A stretch of 64,000 nt of DNA. Origin: Glutamicibacter soli. GTDB lineage: Bacteria > Actinomycetota > Actinomycetes > Actinomycetales > Micrococcaceae. The first letter of the stretch is position 1; the number at the start of each line of letters is the position of its first letter. A program made the translations under genes and the position numbers. The stretch is taken from positions 248,001 to 312,000 of the forward strand of contig NZ_POAF01000004.1 in assembly GCF_003309065.1 (NCBI RefSeq), written 5' to 3'. Shown here piece after piece: positions 1,280 through 24,210 of this stretch. Below the pieces are notes generated by a model. That model did not search any database. It was not told the DNA's origin and saw only the letters and a program-made list of their open reading frames with translations.

Positions 1280-2014
1280 CTACGGCAGGTATTCGTCGAG
1301 GGCTTTCACCATGTCCTCATACCCCCGCTGTTTTGCCAAATCACGTGGCGAAACCCCGTTGTCATCCGGGATGCCGGGATCCGCACCGCCAGCCAGCAGC
1401 AAACGCACCGCCTCGACCTGTCGCGGGCCGCCGTCGCCGAGCACGATGGCCTCGTGCAGGGCGGTCCAGCCCAGGTTGTTGATGTGGTCCACGGGAACAC
1501 CGGCTTCCAGCAGGATCTTGATGGTTTCTGTATGGCCGTGTTCCGCGGCGGGAATCAGCGCGGTGCCGCCGTAGCGGTTGGTGCAGGCGACGTCGGCCCC
1601 GTGCGCGATGGCGAGCTCGAGGATCTCGTCCAGGCCCTCGGCTCCCGCATAGAGGAAGGCCGAATCCTGAATGGGATCCTTGGCGTTCACGTCCGCGCCG
1701 GCTTTGACTAGTACCGCAGCCATCGAGGTATCCTCGTTTTTCACCGCGCGCACGAGCAACGGCGTCTGGTCCGCGAAGCGTGCGTTGGCATCCGCTCCGG
1801 AAGCGATGGCCGCCTGCGCCGCCGCCAGGTTTCCGGAATCCACCGCTGTCTGAAGTGCGGCCGTCTGGTCGTGGGCACCCGCGGACCCCTGCCCGCTGTC
1901 GGCAGGCGGAGGGGTCGCGGCGGGGGTACAAGAACCGAGCAATAGCACCGCACCCAGCGCCAGCGAGGGCAGCAAGGCGTGCCACGCGGAGCGGCGGAGC
2001 CTGATTTCGGTCAT
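1280..2014 (-). CDS. Ankyrin-repeat lipoprotein
   Basis: 244 residues from the ATG at 2014; an upstream in-frame extension to 2128 is possible but would bury the signal peptide. Residues 5-28 are a basic-then-hydrophobic export signal ending in the lipobox L-G-S-C (Cys29), so the mature protein should be anchored outside the membrane by a lipid. Residues about 45-75 are a Pro/Gly/Ala linker. From about residue 55 there are at least four ankyrin repeats with the usual T-P-L/T-A-L-x-x-A and G-A-D-V-N-A motifs. Ankyrin repeats bind proteins; the partner is unknown. There is no evident functional link to the steroid genes. Confidence 0.85.
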   Translation of the reverse strand: MTEIRLRRSAWHALLPSLALGAVLLLGSCTPAATPPPADSGQGSAGAHDQTAALQTAVDSGNLAAAQAAIASGADANARFADQTPLLVRAVKNEDTSMAAVLVKAGADVNAKDPIQDSAFLYAGAEGLDEILELAIAHGADVACTNRYGGTALIPAAEHGHTETIKILLEAGVPVDHINNLGWTALHEAIVLGDGGPRQVEAVRLLLAGGADPGIPDDNGVSPRDLAKQRGYEDMVKALDEYLP

Positions 2015-2073
2015 GCTTCCAGCTTGCCAGCAGTCAGCGGTGCGCCGCATCAGCCCTACGTGTCTTTCTGGAC

Positions 2074-2126
2074 AAAAAGACGCTCCCCGAGGCCTGGCTG
2101 TTTCCAGCCCGGCTCCGGGGAGCGTC
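2074..2126 (-). terminator. Rho-independent terminator of hsaA-hsaC operon
   Basis: Stem of about 10 bp (2079-2088 with 2117-2126) followed on the minus strand by a run of five T. It lies 15 bases beyond the hsaC stop and fits as terminator of the leftward hsaA-orf-hsaC operon. Confidence 0.8.
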
Positions 2127-2140
2127 ATGCGCGTCTGCGA

Positions 2141-3070
2141 TTAGTTCGCCGCGGCGACTGCTGCCGGCGGCTCGAAGGCTGCCAGCGGTTCGGCGCCCTC
2201 ATGCGAGTGGCCCCAGTAGCTCTCGGCGGTGATTTCCTCGGAGGTGTAGTAGGACTCGTCGACGAGCATGCCGTCGGTGCCGTACTCGATGTCCCAGCCG
2301 CCCGGTGCGCGGACGTAGAAGGAAACCATGTGGTCGTTGGTGTGGCGGCCCAGCGATGCGGTGATGTTGAAGTCCATCTGGCGCACCTTGTCGTAGGCGC
2401 GGCCCACGGTGTCCAGGTCCTCGACCTCCACCATCAGGTGCACCAGGCCCGGAGCCTCGCCGTGCGGGGCCGGTCCCATGGCCAGCGAGTGGTGGCGCTG
2501 GTTGCAGCCGTAGAAGCGGAAGCGGGTTGCAGGGCGCTGCGGGCCCAGGCGGACGGCGCCGCGCGGCAGGAAGCCGAGCACCTCGGTGTAGAAGGAGGTG
2601 GTTTCCTCCATCTTGGTGGTCGGCAGCACGACGTGGCCCATGCCCTGCGCGCCGGTGATGAACTTCTGCGCGTAGCCGGTGATCAGCGGGGTGTGGTCCA
2701 TGCGCGGGCCGAAGAAGATCTCCACCGGGTGGCCGGCTGGATCGGTGAACGTGATGACCTGCTCCAGGCCGCGCTCGTCGTTTTCCTCTTCGGTCAGCCA
2801 GGTCACCGCGATGCCTGCGGCCTCGACGTCCTTGGCCACGGCGGCCAGGGCGAACTGGTCGCGGACTTCCCAGCCCACTGCGACAACCTGGTCTACGTCG
2901 CCCGGGAGCACGATCAGGCGGGCTTCGCGCTCGTCCATGCGCAGGTACAGGCCGTCAGGGTTCGGGCCGACGGTTTCTGCGAAGCCCAGGGCTTCGACGG
3001 TCAGTTCGCGCCAGCGGGCAATGTGCTGGGTCTGAACTTTCAGGTATCCAAGTCCACGGATGTGAGTCAT
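2141..3070 (-). CDS. hsaC: 3,4-DHSA extradiol dioxygenase HsaC
   Basis: 309 residues, the usual length for two-domain type I extradiol dioxygenases. HsaC cleaves the catecholic ring A of 3,4-DHSA (the 9,10-secosteroid) to 4,9-DSHA using Fe(II) and O2 in the cytoplasm. The C-terminal vicinal-oxygen-chelate domain keeps the iron ligands: His146 (GMGHVVLP), His211 (GLVHLMVEVED) and Glu262 (GWDIEYGTDG). His193/His194 and Tyr252 fit the second-sphere residues of BphC-like enzymes. The start at 3070 has AAGGA seven bases upstream. It is last in the hsaA-orf-hsaC operon and 65 bases from the small gene. BphC-type enzymes for biphenyl are similar, but the neighbours favour HsaC. Confidence 0.93.
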   Translation of the reverse strand: MTHIRGLGYLKVQTQHIARWRELTVEALGFAETVGPNPDGLYLRMDEREARLIVLPGDVDQVVAVGWEVRDQFALAAVAKDVEAAGIAVTWLTEEENDERGLEQVITFTDPAGHPVEIFFGPRMDHTPLITGYAQKFITGAQGMGHVVLPTTKMEETTSFYTEVLGFLPRGAVRLGPQRPATRFRFYGCNQRHHSLAMGPAPHGEAPGLVHLMVEVEDLDTVGRAYDKVRQMDFNITASLGRHTNDHMVSFYVRAPGGWDIEYGTDGMLVDESYYTSEEITAESYWGHSHEGAEPLAAFEPPAAVAAAN

Positions 3071-4814: not shown

Positions 4815-5717
4815 ATGACTACGGAACTTCGCAATGCGCCGGGCGGATCGCCTGCAGCCGGCGCCGACGCAATCCTGCGTGAACTGCCCACCGAGCAGGG
4901 AACGCTGCGCTACTGGGAAGCCGGCCAGGGCCGCCCCCTGGTGTTCCTGCATGGATCGGGACCGGGCGTCAGCGGATGGCAGAACTTCGGCGACGTGCTG
5001 CCGGCCTTCGCCGAGCACTTCCACTGCTACGTGATTGAATTCCCGGGCTTCGGCGTCAGTGACCCCACCGACAAGCACCCCATGCCGGCGGCCAGCCAGG
5101 CGGTCATCGACCTGCTGGACGGGCTGGGCCTGGACAAGGTCGACATCATCGGCAACTCCATGGGCGGCATGGTCGGCACCCTGTTCTCCATGAGCCACCC
5201 CGAGCGCGTGCGCCGCCTGGTGACCGTGGGCGGCCTGGGCCTGAATGCCTTCGCGCCGTTCCCCGCCGAGGGAATCAACCTGCTGATCGCCTTCACCGAG
5301 GACCCGACCCGCGAGCGGCTGATCCAGTGGCTGCGCTCCATGGTGTTCGACGAGGAAACCGTCACCGAGGAACTGATCGAGAAGCGCTGGGCCCTGGCCA
5401 CCGAGCCGAAGACCCTGGAAAGCGCGCGCCGCATGTACAGCTCCGCCGCCATGAAGGCGCAGATCGCCGCCCAGGCCGAATCCGATGATCCGCCGGCATG
5501 GTCCATGCTGCACAAGGTCAAGGCCAAGACCTTGATCCTGTGGGGCCGCGATGACCGCGTCACCCCGATGGACGCCTCGCTGATCCCGATGCGCACCATC
5601 CCGGACGTGGAACTGCACGTGTTCCCGAAGTGCGGGCACTGGGCCATGATCGAGCAGAAGGCCGCCTTCGAAAGCGTTGTCGTTGAATTCCTGAACCGTG
5701 AGGAGAGCACGTCATGA
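4815..5717 (+). CDS. hsaD: 4,9-DSHA C-C hydrolase HsaD
   Basis: 300 residues from the ATG at 4815, which has GAGGAG eight bases upstream; an in-frame start at 4662 has no good ribosome site and would run through the promoter. Meta-cleavage-product hydrolase of the alpha/beta fold: it splits 4,9-DSHA into DOHNAA (HIP precursor) and 2-hydroxyhexadienoate. The oxyanion loop is H-G-S-G-P-G (46-51), the nucleophile Ser115 in G-N-S-M-G-G, the acid Asp247 in G-R-D-D-R-V and His275 in C-G-H-W. The stop overlaps the kshB start by four bases (ATGA), indicating translational coupling. Confidence 0.94.
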   Translation: MTTELRNAPGGSPAAGADAILRELPTEQGTLRYWEAGQGRPLVFLHGSGPGVSGWQNFGDVLPAFAEHFHCYVIEFPGFGVSDPTDKHPMPAASQAVIDLLDGLGLDKVDIIGNSMGGMVGTLFSMSHPERVRRLVTVGGLGLNAFAPFPAEGINLLIAFTEDPTRERLIQWLRSMVFDEETVTEELIEKRWALATEPKTLESARRMYSSAAMKAQIAAQAESDDPPAWSMLHKVKAKTLILWGRDDRVTPMDASLIPMRTIPDVELHVFPKCGHWAMIEQKAAFESVVVEFLNREESTS

Positions 5718-6763
5718 CCAGCATCGTCAGCACCCCGCGGATCACCGCGCTGCAAACCCGCGTCGTCGAGGTCATCAAGGAAACCCACGACGCCCACACC
5801 CTGGTGCTGGAGCCTGCGGCCGAGCAGGCCGACAGCTTCCGCTACCGCCCGGGCCAGTTCCTGACCCTGCGCATCCCCAGCGACCGCGACCAGGACGCCG
5901 CGCGCTGCTATTCGCTGTGCAGCTCCCCGGAGCAGGACGAACGCCTGAAGGTCACCATCAAGCGCACTCGCGACGGGTACGCCTCGAACTGGATCTGTGA
6001 CAACGTGGAAGCCGGCCACGTGCTTGAGGTGCTCAAGCCTGCCGGAACCTTCGTCCCGTCCTCCCTGGACACCGACTTCCTGCTGTTCGCTGCAGGCAGC
6101 GGCGTGACCCCGGTGCTCTCCATCCTGAAGTCCGCGCTGATCGCCGGCACCGGGTCGATCACCCTGATCTACGCAAACCGCGACGAGCAGAACGTGATCT
6201 TCAAGGACGAGCTGGTCGCGCTGACCAAGGCCTACTCGGGCCGCCTGCACGTGATCCACTGGCTGGAGAGCGTCCAGGGCATCCCTGACCTCGCCTCGAT
6301 GACCGCGCTGGCCAAGCCCTACGCGCAGCGCGAAGCGTTCATCTGCGGCCCCGGCCCGTTCATGGACTGCATCGAGACAGTGCTGCAGAACCTGGGCGCC
6401 GCCCCGGAGCGCATCCACATCGAGCGCTTCAACTCGCTGGAGGCGAACCCGTTCGCCCCGGTGGACCCGCTGGTGGTGGACGCCGACGGTGAAACCGCGC
6501 AGGTCGAGGTGGAACTGGACGGCAAGACCAGCAACGTTGCCTGGCCTGCCGGCAACAAGCTGCTCGACGTCCTGCTGAACGCGGGAATCGATGCGCCGTT
6601 CTCCTGCCGCGAGGGCGCCTGCAGCGCTTGCACCTGCATCGTGCTGGAAGGCGAAGTGGAGATGGAGCGCAACGAGGTGCTCGAACCGCAGGACCTGGAA
6701 GAGGGCCTGATCCTGGCCTGCCAGGCCAAGGCGCTGAGCCCGAAGGTGAAGATCACCTACTAA
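5714..6763 (+). CDS. kshB: 3-ketosteroid 9alpha-hydroxylase reductase KshB
   Basis: 349 residues. Passes electrons from NAD(P)H through FAD and a plant-type 2Fe-2S cluster to the Rieske oxygenase KshA. Domains in order: FAD-binding beta barrel with R-C-Y-S-L-C-S (64-70), NAD domain with G-S-G-V-T-P (128-133) and C-G-P-G-P-F-M (211-217), then a C-terminal ferredoxin domain with Cys298, Cys303, Cys306 and Cys336. This order (ferredoxin last) is that of KshB and PaaE-like reductases. Translationally coupled to hsaD by ATGA and followed by a strong terminator. A role in supplying other Rieske oxygenases cannot be excluded. Confidence 0.92.
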   Translation: MTSIVSTPRITALQTRVVEVIKETHDAHTLVLEPAAEQADSFRYRPGQFLTLRIPSDRDQDAARCYSLCSSPEQDERLKVTIKRTRDGYASNWICDNVEAGHVLEVLKPAGTFVPSSLDTDFLLFAAGSGVTPVLSILKSALIAGTGSITLIYANRDEQNVIFKDELVALTKAYSGRLHVIHWLESVQGIPDLASMTALAKPYAQREAFICGPGPFMDCIETVLQNLGAAPERIHIERFNSLEANPFAPVDPLVVDADGETAQVEVELDGKTSNVAWPAGNKLLDVLLNAGIDAPFSCREGACSACTCIVLEGEVEMERNEVLEPQDLEEGLILACQAKALSPKVKITY

Positions 6764-6775
6764 GGCTAGAACCAC

Positions 6776-6815
6776 CAGCAGATGCCCCGCCAATGGCGGG
6801 GCATCTGCTGTTTTT
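6776..6815 (+). terminator. Strong rho-independent terminator after kshB
   Basis: Perfect 16-bp stem (6776-6791 with 6795-6810), 3-base loop, followed by TTTTT. Ends the hsaD-kshB transcript. Confidence 0.95.
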
Positions 6816-6888
6816 GGCTGAAATTCTTCTATCGGGATTCCCGCAACATTCCCCGCTGTTGTGCAGTGCATGCAAGGAGAGGGTTCCA

Positions 6889-7349
6889 ATGACCTCGATG
6901 CCCCACGTGCTGTATGCGCTCGAAAAGAAGATTCGTGATGATGCCGGGACCCTCGGGGATCGCATCGACACCGCAGGATTTGCCTGTGAGGAGCGGAAAG
7001 TTCGGGATGAGGGGCTTCGCGGCATAAAACTCGACGTTGCGCGGGCATCTGCAAAGAATGGCGTCGCTCGCGCCCAATTCTTGGATTCCACCCTCTCGGC
7101 CCGGGAAACAGCCGAGCTGCTTGGCCTGGTCTGGCCGCGGTTAGGCGCTGCAGCGCAGCCGGGGCTCTCCTACGTGATGGCGCCACTCCCGGTGGGAATC
7201 CATCCGCAGGCGACCGAAGGGTTCTTCACGTCGGAGAATACGGAACTGGTGGCAGGAGGGCAGCGCTCCACTCCGGCGCAGTGGCTCACCAGGGGAGGGA
7301 ACCGTGACCCGTCGCCAGGCAGAAGGCGGCACTGGGGCTGTTGGTGTGA
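6889..7349 (+). pseudogene. Frameshifted MbcA/ParS/Xre-like HTH protein
   Basis: AAGGAGAG lies about ten bases before the ATG at 6889. The frame gives a helical N-terminus, then S-A-R-E-T-A-E-L-L-G-L, typical of DNA-binding helices, and a C-terminal part G-I-H-P-Q-A-T-E-G-F-F-T plus T-P-A-Q-W-L-T-R-G-G, characteristic of the MbcA/ParS/Xre antitoxin-like family. After R-D-P (about 7310) the frame runs on without a stop into the antisense of the next gene, whereas one base over it gives V-A-R-Q-K-A-A-L-G-L-L-V and TGA at 7347, the expected kind of family ending. A one-base deletion near 7309-7312, or a sequencing error, explains this. No partner toxin gene was seen. Confidence 0.55.
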
Positions 7350-7419
7350 CTTCGGGTTACAGCGAGCCCGCAGGGGCAGGCCGGGGCAATCCCCGGGCAA
7401 CCGCAGCAGCTGGGCCCGG

Positions 7420-7692
7420 TCAGGAAGCCGCGGCCCGATCTGCGAGCTTGAGGTTGCCCTGCACCGTCTCATCGCGCACCGCCGCGCGCAGGGTCTCGCA
7501 GCCCACGAACTGGTCGCGCGGCAGGTTGCCCGTAGCGCGGGCGGGGCGCTCGCGGCACAGGTCCAGCGCCTCGTCGGTCCACTGGACGCTGGTCTGCTCC
7601 CACGCGCTCTTACGCACCTGCACCTTGGCCAGGCATTCGATGCAGCGCACCTGCTGCATTGCGGTGTCTAGTTCTTGCTCGCGGTTCGACAT
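7420..7692 (-). CDS. Small Cys protein partnered with KshA-like protein
   Basis: 90 residues. The ATG at 7692 overlaps the stop of the upstream KshA-like gene by one base (TAATG), so the two are translationally coupled. It has C-I-E-C (Cys17, Cys20), S-V-Q-W (35-38), Cys46 and Cys65, ending in a helical tail. It is a paralogue of the 92-residue protein after the real kshA (21682-21960): both share C-x2-C, (T)-S-V-Q-W, a Cys eight residues beyond that W, and a C-x-x-L...A-V-x-(D/E) helix. The Cys pattern suggests metal or iron-sulphur binding. Not a known ferredoxin family that I recognise; a KshA-accessory role is inference. Confidence 0.8.
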   Translation of the reverse strand: MSNREQELDTAMQQVRCIECLAKVQVRKSAWEQTSVQWTDEALDLCRERPARATGNLPRDQFVGCETLRAAVRDETVQGNLKLADRAAAS

Positions 7693-8738
7693 TACGCCAG
7701 CTGCTTTCCGTTGACTCGGCGGAGGATCAGGTTGCGGGCCGAGGACCTGGTCCACAGGTCCATCGGCATGGTGGTGTCCACCTCGTACTCGAAGCGCTCG
7801 GTCATCTGCGGGGAAACGTCCTGCTCGTCGACGAAGAACTGGGAGTACCAGCGGTGCAGCGCCGCGACGGGGCTACTGGCCCCGCATGCGGCCCTGCAGC
7901 CCGTTGCGGCCGCGTCGTCCAGCTGCGCGCGCACGGCCCCGGTGATCGAGCGCAGGATCTGCGTGGCGTGCCCGGCGGCGGCGGTCTTCAGTTCCGGGGC
8001 CGGGGGCTGCTCGGTGCGGACCATGACCCCGGTCATCAGCACCAGGTGCTGCTCGTCGATGGGGTAGTGCGCGGTGAGCACGATGGCGTCGAGATTGCGG
8101 TCTTCCATCACGTAGTCCAGCTGCGCGATCATGACGGCCGGCCCGTAGTAGCCGGCCACCGAGTCCGCCAGCTGGATAGCCGCAGCATTCTGCCCCGGAT
8201 CCTGCAGCTGATAGCTGTGGTGCAGCGGCCCCTCGAAGTACTGCGTGGCCAGCTGTCCTTCGAAAACATTCTTGAAGTACAGCTGCTCGCTTTCGGTGAC
8301 GTGGGGCGAATCGGCCAGATGCACTACGTGCTCCATGACCTGGCCGGTGCTGGCGGCGAGCGTGGTTTCCTTCCACGCCCAAGCCGACCATTCAAGGTCC
8401 TCGTCGTCTTCCGCGCCGGTGCCGCTGCGCAGCCGGGGGATTGTCAGATCCTGCGGCGGCGGATTGCCCTGCGGGTCGTGCCACACATAGAACAGGCCGT
8501 CCTGCTCGAGGCAGGAGAGGTCCTGCGGGGAGTGTCCGGCCTCAAGCCGGGCGGTCAACTGGTCCTGGCCATCTGCCTGAACCTGCAGCGTCACGCCGAA
8601 GGCGGCGAGGCGGTGCACGCCGCCGTCGCGGAATCTGTGGGACAGGCCAAGGCAGTGCCAGCCTCGTGCGTAGCGCGCGGGATCAGCGTGGGGCGACTGA
8701 TCGCCAAGCGGCTGCGGATCGACCCGAACCATGTGCAT
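7692..8738 (-). CDS. KshA-like protein lacking Rieske and mononuclear iron sites
   Basis: 348 residues with AAGGA five bases before the ATG. Clear KshA paralogue: R-Y-A-R-G-W-H-C-L-G-L (23-32), F-Y-V-W-H-D-P-Q-G-N-P-P-P (83-95), Y-F-K-N-V-F-E-G (154-161) and R-W-Y-S-Q-F-F-V-D near the C-terminus. Compared with the kshA product at 22046-23233, about 43 residues containing both Rieske motifs (C-x-H and C-x2-H) are absent between residues 60 and 79. The catalytic His pair becomes Asp143 and Thr148, and the carboxylate ligand aligns with Val. The frame is uninterrupted. Probably a non-catalytic subunit or regulator, or a neo-functionalised protein; it faces kstD across a shared promoter region. 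Confidence 0.85.
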   Translation of the reverse strand: MHMVRVDPQPLGDQSPHADPARYARGWHCLGLSHRFRDGGVHRLAAFGVTLQVQADGQDQLTARLEAGHSPQDLSCLEQDGLFYVWHDPQGNPPPQDLTIPRLRSGTGAEDDEDLEWSAWAWKETTLAASTGQVMEHVVHLADSPHVTESEQLYFKNVFEGQLATQYFEGPLHHSYQLQDPGQNAAAIQLADSVAGYYGPAVMIAQLDYVMEDRNLDAIVLTAHYPIDEQHLVLMTGVMVRTEQPPAPELKTAAAGHATQILRSITGAVRAQLDDAAATGCRAACGASSPVAALHRWYSQFFVDEQDVSPQMTERFEYEVDTTMPMDLWTRSSARNLILRRVNGKQLA

Positions 8739-8846
8739 CCCATTCCTTCGTCACACCTGACCTGGAGACGCTCTTTCCGGAGACCGATCCCGGAAGAAGG
8801 CGTAAATCTATATCTAGCCATAAATTTCCGTTTTGGAAACGGTGAA

Positions 8847-8861
8847 TCCCGGTGTGCGGGA
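8847..8861. promoter_or_regulatory. TCCCG-N5-CGGGA inverted repeat, kstD / KshA-like promoter region
   Basis: TCCCG-GTGTG-CGGGA in the 248-base divergent region between the KshA-like gene (ATG 8738) and kstD (ATG 8987). Same half-sites and spacing as at 4720, 13275, 17988 and 28957. Confidence 0.7.
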
Positions 8862-8986
8862 CGTCACAGAAACCCTCGAAGCGGGTTTGTTCCGAATTGT
8901 CCTACTGGGTGGGATGCGGCGTCCGGGCACCATGCCGAGTCTGATTGGGTAGCGCTCACACCCATGTGGACGACAAAGGAGAAACT

Positions 8987-10543
8987 ATGTCCAACAACCA
9001 GGCTTGGGACGACGAATACGAGGTCGTAGTCGTCGGTTCCGGCGCTGCGGCCCTGGCTGGCGCCTACAGCTCGGCCCGGCGCGGTCTGAAGACCCTGCTC
9101 GTGGAAAAGACCAACCTTCTGGGCGGCGCTTCGGCCTACTCCGGTGCTTCCTGCTGGCTGCCCGGAACGCAGGTGCAGCAGCGCGCCGACGTCGAGGACT
9201 CCAGCGAGTCGGCCAAAGCCTACCTGAAGGCCGTCATGGGTGACCACGAGGTGGAGCGCCGCGAGGCCTTCGTGGATACCGCCCCGGAGTTGGTCGAGTT
9301 CTTCGAATCGGATCCGGCCATCGAGTTCTACTGGACCGCATTCCCGGACTACTTCAACGCCCATGAGAGCAAGCCGCTGGGCCGCTCCATGATGCCGGTG
9401 GACCTGCCGCGCGAGGAAATCGGTGAGCTGGCCGACCTGGTGCGTCCGCTGGTCGAATACGACCGCTACAACCAGCCGCACCCGGAGGGACCGTTGACCG
9501 CAGGCCAGGCTCTCATCGGCCGCCTGCTGCTGGCACTGACCAACACCGGCAACGGCACCATCCAGCTGGAAACCGAGCTGGTGGACCTTGTCACCGAGGA
9601 CGGCCGCGTGACCGGCGCGATCGTCAAGGACGCCGAGGGCATCCGCCGCATCCACGCCACCGAAGGCGTCATCCTGGGCGCCGGCGGCTTCGAAGCCAAC
9701 CAGGACCTGCGTACCGTGAACGGCACCCCGGGCAACTCGGGCTGGACCATGGCTCCGGCCGGCGCCAACATCGGCACCGCCATCCGCGCCGGCCAGAAGG
9801 CCGGCGGCGCGGTGGAGCAGCTGCACCAGGCTTGGTGGTGCCCGGGCGCCGCACAGCCAAAGGGCAACGCGGCCTTCGCGCTGGGCTTCCGCGGCGGCGT
9901 GTGGCTGGATGCCAACGGAAAGCGTTTCGCCAACGAGTGCCTGCCCTACGACCAGATGGGCCGCGTGCTGGCCGCCGCGCCTGAGCGCATCCCGTCCTGG
10001 TTCATCTTCGACTCGCGCTTCGGCGGCCAGATGCCGGGCATCATGCGTCCGTTCAACACCTCCCCGCAGGAGCACCTGGACGCCGGCACCTGGGTCAAGG
10101 CCGACACCCTGGAAGAGCTGGCTGCCGCCACCGGCCTGCCGGCCGACGCGCTGCAGGCAAGCATCGAGCGCTTCAACGGCTTCACCGTCACCGGCGTGGA
10201 CGAGGACTTCCACCGCGGCGAGAACCCGTACGACCAGTTCTTCGCGGATCCTGAATACGGTCCGGGCCCGACCCTGATCCCTGTGGACCAGGCGCCGTTC
10301 TACGCCGCCCGCATGGTGCTCAGCGACCTGGGCACCAAGGGCGGCCTGCGTACCGACGTGGACGCCCGCGTGCTGCGCGAGGACGGCACCGCCATCGAGG
10401 GCCTGTATGCGGTGGGCAACACCAGCGCGTCCTTCTCCGGCGGCTTCTACCCGGGTCCGGGCACCCCGCTGGGTTCGGGCATGGTCTTCGCCTACCGCGC
10501 TGCCCAGACCCTGAAGGCACCGGCCCAGGCGCAGTCCGTCTAG
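8987..10543 (+). CDS. kstD: 3-ketosteroid dehydrogenase KstD (probably delta-1)
   Basis: 518 residues from the ATG at 8987, with AAGGAG six bases upstream. FAD enzyme that introduces a double bond into ring A of 3-ketosteroids; with KshAB it triggers ring-B opening. The FAD motif is V-V-V-G-S-G-A-A (13-20). Residues matching the active-site set of Rhodococcus KstD1 are Tyr122 (D-Y-F), Tyr321 (L-P-Y), Tyr488 (F-Y-P-G-P-G) and Gly492. The related delta-4-(5alpha) enzymes have Tyr-x-Ser at the third position; here it is Tyr-Pro-Gly, favouring delta-1. However, the following T-P-L-G-S-G-M-V-F-A-Y differs from the usual G-T-I-G-P-A-M-T-F-G-Y, so the subclass is not certain. Confidence 0.88.
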   Translation: MSNNQAWDDEYEVVVVGSGAAALAGAYSSARRGLKTLLVEKTNLLGGASAYSGASCWLPGTQVQQRADVEDSSESAKAYLKAVMGDHEVERREAFVDTAPELVEFFESDPAIEFYWTAFPDYFNAHESKPLGRSMMPVDLPREEIGELADLVRPLVEYDRYNQPHPEGPLTAGQALIGRLLLALTNTGNGTIQLETELVDLVTEDGRVTGAIVKDAEGIRRIHATEGVILGAGGFEANQDLRTVNGTPGNSGWTMAPAGANIGTAIRAGQKAGGAVEQLHQAWWCPGAAQPKGNAAFALGFRGGVWLDANGKRFANECLPYDQMGRVLAAAPERIPSWFIFDSRFGGQMPGIMRPFNTSPQEHLDAGTWVKADTLEELAAATGLPADALQASIERFNGFTVTGVDEDFHRGENPYDQFFADPEYGPGPTLIPVDQAPFYAARMVLSDLGTKGGLRTDVDARVLREDGTAIEGLYAVGNTSASFSGGFYPGPGTPLGSGMVFAYRAAQTLKAPAQAQSV

Positions 10544-21681: not shown

Positions 21682-21960
21682 CTAGAGGGCGTCGGCGACA
21701 AGCGCGTCGCCGATGACCGGCTCCACGCGGGACTTGATAGGCAGGCGGCCCTCGCGCACCGCGTCATCGATGCTCTGGCTCAATGACGAGCAGCTCAGTG
21801 CGGTGGTGCCGCACACGCTGTCCCGGGCATCGGCCGTGGCTTCGGCGAAGCGGGGGCACGAGGTCGCCGCATCGCTGACCCACTGCACACTGGTGTGCGG
21901 GATGCTGAACTTCTCCACCAGGACGGCGGTCCCGCACTGCTGGCAATCGATCTGTTTCAT
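21682..21960 (-). CDS. Small Cys protein partnered with KshA
   Basis: 92 residues from the ATG at 21960 (GAGG upstream), 85 bases downstream of kshA on the same strand. C-Q-Q-C (Cys6, Cys9), T-S-V-Q-W (23-27), Cys35, then Cys50 and Cys57 before a helical D-D-A-V-R-E-G-R-L. It is a paralogue of the 7420-7692 product, which follows the KshA-like gene. The C-x2-C pair plus later Cys suggest a zinc or Fe-S site. I do not recognise the family; both copies being tied to KshA homologues suggests a chaperone, electron-transfer or assembly partner. Confidence 0.82.
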   Translation of the reverse strand: MKQIDCQQCGTAVLVEKFSIPHTSVQWVSDAATSCPRFAEATADARDSVCGTTALSCSSLSQSIDDAVREGRLPIKSRVEPVIGDALVADAL

Positions 21961-22045: not shown

Positions 22046-23233
22046 CTAGGCCTTGGCCTTGGTTGGATCCTGTTCCGGAACCATGCCCTTGGCCACGTTT
22101 TCAGCGACCTCGACCTTCCAGGTCTCCAGTGCCTTGGTGGTGTCCACTTCGAACTCGAAGCGGGCGACCATGTCCTCGGTGATGTCCTCGACATCCACGA
22201 AGAACTGCTCGTACCAGCGGCGCAGCTGGTAGACCGGGCCGTCTTCGGCGGTCAGCAGCGGGTTCTCGATGCGGGTCTTGTGCTTCCAGATCTCCACGTC
22301 CTGCTTGAACTGGGTCTCGACGCCTTCGGTGAACATGTCGGCCATGGCGTTGGCCTGCTCCTGGGTGACGCCGTCGATGGTGTGCACCGAGGTGCCGAAC
22401 ATCAGCACGAACGAGTCCTGCGAGATCGGGTAGTGGCAGTTGACCAGCTTGGTTTCAACGGTGGTGTCGCCGGCAACGGTGTACACGGTGTCCAGCATGA
22501 AGGACGGGCCGTAGTAGGCGGCGTCGGAGATGGTCTCCGAGTCAGGCATGTCCAGCTGCACGCCGGTGTGGATGTCGTCGCGGCCGGTCGAGCGCATGTG
22601 CTGCGCGGCGATGTGGCCCTCGAAGATGTTCTTGAAGTACTGCGGCATCTGGTAGTGCACGTAGAAGAAGTGCGCCATGTCCACCACGTTGTCCACGATC
22701 TCGCGGCAGTTCGAGCCCTCGACCAGGAAGGTGTTCCAGGACCAGTCGCTCCACTCGTCGGTGCCGAAGCCCGGAATCTCCGGGATGGTCACGTCAGCCG
22801 GAGGAGGGTTGCCCTGCGGGTCGTTCCAGACGAACAGCAGGCCGTTGACCTCCATGGTTTCCCAGGCGGCGGTGCGGGCGCGCAGCGGCACGCGCTGTGC
22901 GTACGGCACGTCCTTGCACTTGCCGTCGCCGCCCCAGCGCCAGTCGTGGAACGGGCACGAGATCTCGTCGCCCTTGATTTCACCCTTGGACAGGTCGCCA
23001 CCCATGTGGCGGCAGTAGGCGTCCAGCACGTTGAGCTTGCCCTTGGTGTCGGCCCAGATGACGACCTTGGTGCCGAAGACCTTGATGGTGTGCGGCTTGC
23101 CGTCGCGGAAGTCCTTGGAGCGGCCCAGGCAGTGCCAGCCGCGGGCGAAGCGGGTCGGGTTGCTGCCCGCGTCGATCAGGCGGACTTCGTCGAACTGCTC
23201 GGAATCGGTGATTTCGGTCATGTCAATGGACAT
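22046..23233 (-). CDS. kshA: 3-ketosteroid 9alpha-hydroxylase oxygenase KshA
   Basis: 395 residues from the ATG at 23233, with AAAGGAG seven bases upstream; the in-frame ATG at 23317 lies in the regulatory region. Rieske non-haem iron oxygenase that 9alpha-hydroxylates ADD; the product spontaneously opens ring B. Rieske ligands Cys74, His76 (C-R-H) and Cys93, His96 (C-P-F-H-D-W). Mononuclear iron ligands His188, His193 (D-M-A-H-F-F-Y-V-H) and Asp312 (Q-D-V-E-I-W). R-W-Y-E-Q-F-F-V-D near the end is typical of KshA. Receives electrons from KshB (5714-6763). Co-transcribed with the small Cys protein. Confidence 0.95.
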   Translation of the reverse strand: MSIDMTEITDSEQFDEVRLIDAGSNPTRFARGWHCLGRSKDFRDGKPHTIKVFGTKVVIWADTKGKLNVLDAYCRHMGGDLSKGEIKGDEISCPFHDWRWGGDGKCKDVPYAQRVPLRARTAAWETMEVNGLLFVWNDPQGNPPPADVTIPEIPGFGTDEWSDWSWNTFLVEGSNCREIVDNVVDMAHFFYVHYQMPQYFKNIFEGHIAAQHMRSTGRDDIHTGVQLDMPDSETISDAAYYGPSFMLDTVYTVAGDTTVETKLVNCHYPISQDSFVLMFGTSVHTIDGVTQEQANAMADMFTEGVETQFKQDVEIWKHKTRIENPLLTAEDGPVYQLRRWYEQFFVDVEDITEDMVARFEFEVDTTKALETWKVEVAENVAKGMVPEQDPTKAKA

Positions 23234-24195: not shown

Positions 24196-24210
24196 TCCCA
24201 CTGTCTGGGA
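24196..24210. promoter_or_regulatory. TCCCA-N5-TGGGA inverted repeat, SDR / MFS promoter region
   Basis: TCCCA-CTGTC-TGGGA has the same geometry as the TCCCG-N5-CGGGA sites, with a compensated change in both arms that keeps the symmetry. 72 bases from the SDR start, 202 from the MFS start. Confidence 0.6.

Follow-up and report, generated by a model that had tools for sequence, protein, structure and literature searches.

The gene at 7692-8738 on the reverse strand of the window (the whole stretch of 64,000 nucleotides that was analysed) encodes a pseudo-oxygenase that descends from a KshA lineage and has lost both of its metal centres, yet is still maintained by purifying selection. The loss of the two centres under continuing selection suggests a job other than steroid oxidation. 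Oxygenase chemistry was lost stepwise, and our tentative explanation is that the protein is kept to assist the KSH/KstD step as a putative steroid-binding accessory with no catalysis of its own. On this view it would retain the helix-grip (START-like) steroid pocket of KshA, bind 3-ketosteroids without oxidizing them, and buffer, hand over or present the steroid to the intact KshA, KshB and KstD of the same cluster. Interest in Rieske oxygenases lies in their two metal centres, and a selected descendant with neither of them would show that the scaffold can be useful without them.

Loss of the metal centres

The open frame starts with ATG and encodes 348 residues, and just upstream of the start lies a ribosome-site-like element, GAAGGA (8744-8749, reverse strand), which is identical across the four genomes with a Rieske-less protein. 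The intact frame, free of stops and with a good ribosome site, had already been described in the sequence-only reading of this DNA. In Pfam, the product matched KshA_C (PF19298) over the full profile length with 127 bits (gathering threshold 23.3), and the Rieske model gave no match up to E = 1. The other KshA of the window (22046-23233, reverse strand) matched both families and has the Rieske motif and the iron ligands; no KshA-like gene other than these two was found in the genome. Relatives of solved structure are the KshAs 4qdf, 4qdc and 2zyl, and a fourth, weak profile match is a designed protein. The predicted structure of the pseudo-oxygenase has a mean pLDDT of 41 and is too poor for use.

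In the alignment, about 46 residues are missing around the cluster-binding loops, and both Rieske motifs are gone, as the sequence-only reading had stated. Its figure of precisely 43 residues could not be upheld, because the scar of the excised part (residues 63-77; 8508-8552, reverse strand) is only 13-20% identical between genera, and the edges of the excision cannot be fixed. A sequencing error whose repair would restore the residues had also been considered there; this is excluded, as is an assembly error, because the excision is common to four genomes. An intact Rieske motif (CxH...CxxH) is absent in all six pseudo-oxygenases; all 11 intact KshAs from the family genomes have it, as do 21 of 21 more distant KshAs.

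The residue mapping was based on the functional residues of Mycobacterium tuberculosis KshA as named in the accessible part of PMC4064121. The bridging Asp178 corresponds to His140 in the window protein (Arg in two relatives), and His181 and His186 correspond to Asp143 and Thr148, the two replacements that had been read from the sequence before; all three lie in the former ligand helix (8295-8321, reverse strand). The carboxylate ligand had been aligned with a valine: its loss stands, but the residue that replaces Asp304 is Ala268 (7935-7937, reverse strand), which adjoins Val269. His181 and His186 are lost in all six pseudo-oxygenases. Asp304 is lost in four and kept in two intermediates; likewise, the intermediates retain the bridging aspartate, in place of which the Rieske-less proteins have His or Arg. 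None of the four ligand and bridging residues remains in the four Rieske-less proteins. When established knowledge is applied to this mapping, a protein devoid of Rieske cluster, iron and bridging Asp cannot perform KshA-type electron transfer and oxygen activation, and KshA chemistry would thus be out of its reach. A conserved replacement metal site formed by His140, Asp143 and His146 was also considered and rejected, positions 140 and 143 being Arg and Asn in two relatives.

Of the eight named residues of the steroid pocket (M. tuberculosis numbering), Val176, Gln204, Tyr232 and Met238 are kept in the window protein, and Asn240, Asn257, Phe301 and Trp308 are changed, position 240 being Asp instead of Asn in many intact KshAs as well. 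Gln204, Tyr232 and Met238 are retained in all six pseudo-oxygenases, and position 176 is Val or Leu. At four near-invariant KshA positions (31-32 of 32 intact sequences), all six proteins share a single alternative residue, namely Glu136, His137, Thr222 and Leu232. The adjoining Glu136 and His137 (8328-8333) and Thr222 (8073-8075), the latter at a named pocket position by alignment, replace Asp-Asn and Asn of 32 out of 32 intact KshAs. Over 115 columns that are almost invariant in these 32 KshAs, the window protein keeps 56, changes 41 and has 18 deleted. All 17 aligned KshA and pseudo-oxygenase sequences have the N-terminal ARGWHCLG unchanged, and its retention by all six pseudo-oxygenases was judged against the consensus (at least 95%) of the 32 intact KshAs.

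Relatives and descent

The sequence-only reading would have been weakened by a lack of orthologues elsewhere, and a contig search found them in Glutamicibacter protophormiae (G009; 95%) and Paeniglutamicibacter gangotriensis (G039; 66%). These two and one congener of the second (G138) have the excision and the ligand losses of the window protein, each of the four Rieske-less proteins having 348 residues, and two further genomes of the second genus (G108 and G066) carry the intermediate form. Of 395 genomes drawn from the family, 12 gave a match, which in G146 covered only a short stretch (E = 7e-4). KshA-like genes occur in 2 of 18 genomes of the own genus, 4 of 15 of the second genus (g23) and 5 of 29 of the third (g32). 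All six KshA-bearing genomes of the first two genera have one intact KshA and one pseudo-oxygenase, which could reflect a cluster inherited as a block, and each of the five in the third genus has one intact KshA.

The intermediates are 371 residues long. Their first Rieske motif is without His (CSL or CPL) and the second reads CNVH; three of the four Rieske ligand positions are therefore left, and 14 residues are missing behind the second motif. His181 and His186 are Thr and Ser, and Asp178 and Asp304 are kept. Judged from these proteins, which preserve an intermediate state in two genomes, the loss went stepwise; the suggested order begins with both iron histidines and one Rieske histidine, and the cluster region, the carboxylate and the bridging Asp follow later.

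A profile built from the six was run against wider, overlapping draws from the order (396 genomes), the phylum (396) and the class (335); no further pseudo-oxygenase was present among the loci opened, a marginal match in G644 and some other matches of these draws being left out. Both motifs were found at all 21 distant KshA loci and in six of seven remoter matches, the seventh having no KshA-like frame. A motif check of 58 more loci (57 distinct genes, L110 being the same as L150) was passed by 57; L131 passed by a chance match and its true motif was confirmed separately, and L118, cut by a contig end, shows only the iron motif. Plasmid records with a match numbered 15, the best being 33.2% identical in the identity comparison. 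One KshA-like match (L077; G1036:C1:2783468-2784586) contains one in-frame TGA and is possibly a broken copy.

In the protein tree, the six pseudo-oxygenases form one clade (99/98), and the branch splitting them together with the five third-genus KshAs from the other 27 sequences is supported at 100/100, in a run where the program flagged the meeting of long branches and an unusual letter composition of two rows. In trees of only the catalytic domain that omitted one half or the other (33 and 31 rows), each half still grouped with the third-genus KshAs against the rest (100/99 in both); with both halves, pseudo-oxygenases and third-genus KshAs lay on one side of a branch supported at 100/100 (28/38 rows). 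The intact KshA of the own genome falls outside this clade. A recent duplicate of that KshA was rejected, a clade of dead and own-type sequences having a p-AU of 1.7e-83 (28/38 rows, ten having escaped the pattern used for trimming). The six pseudo-oxygenases have derived residues, locus and tree clade in common, and by the tree the window protein descends from a KshA lineage other than that of the intact KshA in its own genome. It had been called a KshA paralogue; KshA descent is retained, and close duplication of 22046-23233 is contradicted both by the tree and by the third genus, in which the same locus holds an intact KshA instead.

Selection

Seven pairs, which are not independent, were examined with pairwise codon models (own script, GY94-type, F3x4). 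For the window gene, omega was 0.074 against G009, 0.113 against G138 and 0.122 against G039; it was 0.201 for G138-G039, 0.136 and 0.152 for G009 against G138 and G039, respectively, and 0.171 for G108-G066. Twice the log-likelihood difference from omega = 1 ranged from 55 to 152. Relaxed selection, with dN/dS near 1, had been named as an outcome that would speak against the sequence-only reading, and all seven pairs are far below that value. Leaving out the last 25 codons gives 0.078 to 0.210, and dS reaches about 1.9 without a stop or loss of frame. Purifying selection on the pseudo-oxygenase persists. For intact KshA in the same genomes, omega is 0.024-0.043, and the constraint on the pseudo-oxygenase is weaker than that on the enzyme but far from absent.

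Between the window gene and G138, omega is 0.023 over residues 193-245, 0.030 over 324-348 and 0.29 over 1-62, several short stretches being saturated and giving no usable estimate. The tightest constraint is around the central sheet of the steroid pocket (residues 193-245; 8004-8162, reverse strand), which contains Tyr197, Met203 and Thr222, equivalent to Tyr232, Met238 and Asn257 of M. tuberculosis. Between the same two genomes, identity is 66% for the pseudo-oxygenase, 87% for kstD and 95% for KshA, and the pseudo-oxygenase is the fastest of eight proteins compared, a comparison that is approximate in that several genes (kstD and fadD among them) have a few codons extra or missing at the start. 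The four Rieske-less proteins are identical at 213 of 348 residues; the longest identical run, 21 residues at the C-terminus, is within random placement (99.9th percentile, 26).

The C-terminal segment (residues 290-348; 7695-7871, reverse strand) is 76% identical between genera over residues 290-323 and 96-100% over 324-348. The accessible part of PMC4064121 places features involved in trimer formation in the C-terminus of KshA. The last codons of the pseudo-oxygenase also contain a GGAAAG element that may explain its GKQ tail, and the downstream gene's ribosome site may account for part of the conservation here.

The locus and its control region

Upstream, the divergent neighbour is a kstD-like FAD protein (8987-10543, forward strand; the listed frame starts at TTG 8945, the first ATG at 8987), and the common promoter region proposed in the sequence-only reading agrees with these divergent starts, between which lie 8739-8986. 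A kshB-like reductase (5714-6763, forward strand) has Fer2, FAD and NAD domains and no Rieske domain; no other close kshB was found in the genome, where the second-best match is 35% identical. The names hsaA, hsaC, hsaD and kstD are ones we presume from Pfam domains and general background. In the window, as at the opened loci of ten relatives, a divergent kstD flanks the gene and a small CxxC gene comes after it; in nine of the ten, kshB and an hsaD-like hydrolase lie beyond the small gene, the contig of G066 ending first. The pseudo-oxygenase locus is alike in the six genomes, which belong to two genera. A close kshB (at least 64% identity) occurs once in each of the 11 genomes, at the locus or, in G066, on a separate contig, and the intact KshA about 13 kb away therefore presumably shares this reductase.

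Between kshB and the small Cys gene, 6764-7419 comprises about 650 bases without a clear gene; its counterpart has about 1,470 bases in G. protophormiae and only about 100-360 in relatives of the other two genera. Elsewhere in the window, an ankyrin-repeat protein (1280-2128, reverse strand) adjoins an extradiol-dioxygenase-like (hsaC-like) gene at 2141-3070.

The divergent promoter region contains a palindrome, TCCC-N7-GGGA (8847-8861, forward strand), with a second, imperfect copy, TCCT-N7-GGGA (8900-8914, forward strand), on the kstD side. By eye, the palindrome is present in 10 of 11 intergenic regions and has one mismatch in the eleventh (G108). The window has seven copies (4720, 8847, 13275, 17988, 24196, 28957 and 61469) compared with 1.7 expected, and none of 100 shuffles reached seven, for a pattern picked after reading the promoters. 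Five of the nine genome matches to a narrower pattern fall in the window, which is 1.7% of the genome, and a reversed control gave four in the genome; a looser pattern with up to three mismatches showed no enrichment (24 against 21.4 expected). A KstR-like consensus gave only two-mismatch matches, in G066, G227 and G299. The copy at 24196 is upstream of the stretch leading into the intact KshA, which suggests possible joint control of this stretch and the divergent promoter via the palindrome, perhaps an operator of the steroid cluster.

The small CxxC protein

The downstream gene (7420-7692, reverse strand) encodes a CxxC protein of 90 residues whose start overlaps the stop of the pseudo-oxygenase. 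This overlap, TAATG in five of the six and TGATG in one, bears out the earlier proposal of coupling to a small Cys protein. Another member follows the intact KshA of the window (21682-21960, reverse strand). The family pattern is CxxC...TSxQW...C...C, and it recurs downstream of KshA genes (e.g., L069, L074, L093 and L137): after every one of the 17 genes for a KshA or pseudo-oxygenase in the 11 family genomes, after 17 of 21 more distant KshAs by profile, and, as a motif within 400 bases, at 42 of 58 loci (41 of 57 distinct). The small protein reaches no curated cut-off in Pfam and NCBIfam, and a PDB fold search with its model (pLDDT 68) gave no meaningful match, the best E being 0.78. Its omega is 0.26 for the window gene against G009 and 0.65, not different from 1 (2dlnL 1.1), for G138-G039; approximate values between genera are 0.22 and 0.19. 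A transplanted Rieske centre was considered and rejected, the protein also following intact KshAs.

We regard the family as a candidate unrecognised component of KSH; it may supply a part so far overlooked in a steroid hydroxylase that is much studied and used in industry. Judged by gene number, Rv3527 presumably adjoins kshA in M. tuberculosis, and its link to the family is only a lead drawn from that number. The accessible part of PMC6429209 lists Rv3527 as hypothetical, and in that of PMC4064121 no separate ferredoxin was detected for KSH.

Possible functions

The best-protected parts of the pseudo-oxygenase are the pocket sheet and the C-terminus, and the simplest use of a metal-free pocket is binding; a steroid-binding accessory is therefore favoured, although we hold this reading at somewhat less than an even chance. 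Weighing against it are the four changed pocket residues, the fastest evolution among the eight proteins compared and the occurrence in only six genomes. Ranked next, and doubtful, is a non-catalytic alpha-prime subunit that enters or stacks on the head-to-tail KshA trimer and alters its stability, specificity or activity in the manner of ChsH2; both readings can hold together. The conserved C-terminal segment, where KshA carries its trimer features (PMC4064121, as far as accessible), and the ARGWHCLG kept by all six point to such a subunit, and precedents are reported in the accessible parts of PMC11321319 (ChsH1-ChsH2) and PMC12445004 (alpha3-alpha'3 NdmA/NdmB). However, each Rieske cluster serves the neighbour's iron in the trimer, and a subunit without either centre would thus break the electron paths; the lost part would, judging from reviews, include the cluster region turned towards the active site of the neighbour. 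The protein also belongs to another KshA clade than its intact partner, encoded about 13 kb apart, and the C-terminal conservation may partly serve the next gene's ribosome site. A broader combination, in which a metal-free steroid-binding subunit assembles with the living KshA, the small CxxC protein is an unrecognised KSH component, and Glu136-His137 and Thr222 mark a new function, seems to us unlikely as a whole.

Slow decay, with the gene a relic that is not yet broken, would fit the fastest evolution among the proteins compared, the excised domain, the unconserved scar and the restriction to six genomes, but an omega clearly below 1 in seven pairs, dS values up to about 1.9 with no stop or frame loss, and an identical length in four genomes make it a poor explanation. 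New metal-free catalysis at the old active site is slightly poorer still. Its candidate residues, the Glu136-His137 pair and Thr222, do replace in 6/6 pseudo-oxygenases what is Asp, Asn and Asn in 32/32 intact KshAs; this fixation may, however, also serve packing after metal loss, positions 140 and 143 vary among the six, and the reading predicts no known reaction. We consider it least probable that the gene is kept only as a translation leader for the coupled small CxxC gene: the stop-start overlap in all six and GGAAAG in the last codons would be expected of a leader, but the protein remains almost as constrained when the last 25 codons are dropped, and constraint is tight at residues 193-245, which lie far upstream.

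Comparison with known systems

In the open PMC literature, with subscription papers outside the scope, none of the papers listed by our searches described an oxygenase descendant devoid of both metal centres, and none linked Glutamicibacter, steroids and KshA. Precedents exist for the loss of the Rieske centre by itself (NdmC) and for inert partners within steroid catabolism (ChsH2). The pseudo-oxygenase shares with KshA (4qdf, 4qdc and 2zyl) its descent, the KshA_C domain, a place in the steroid cluster near kshB and kstD, and part of the pocket, but differs in having no Rieske centre, iron triad or bridging Asp. NdmC of the NdmCDE N7-demethylase has no Rieske domain and is described, in the accessible parts of PMC4408171 and PMC10380055, as a non-heme iron monooxygenase that uses the extra Rieske cluster of NdmD. 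It is likewise a subunit derived from a Rieske oxygenase without the Rieske domain; in contrast to NdmC, the pseudo-oxygenase also lacks the iron ligands and its adjacent kshB reductase has no Rieske domain (Fer2, FAD and NAD), and an NdmC-like splitting was rejected on these grounds. NdmA/NdmB are listed as alpha3-alpha'3 in the accessible part of PMC12445004.

The accessible part of PMC4064121 places the KshA catalytic domain in the START superfamily, and the pseudo-oxygenase may be like START/SRPBCC ligand binders in function. ChsH2, an inert homologue in the ChsH1-ChsH2 steroid hydratase (PMC11321319, in its accessible part), is likewise a member of steroid catabolism without the catalytic residues of its family, with a homologue that retains them in the same cluster; it differs in being a MaoC-family protein of a proven heteromer, whereas any partner of the pseudo-oxygenase is hypothetical.
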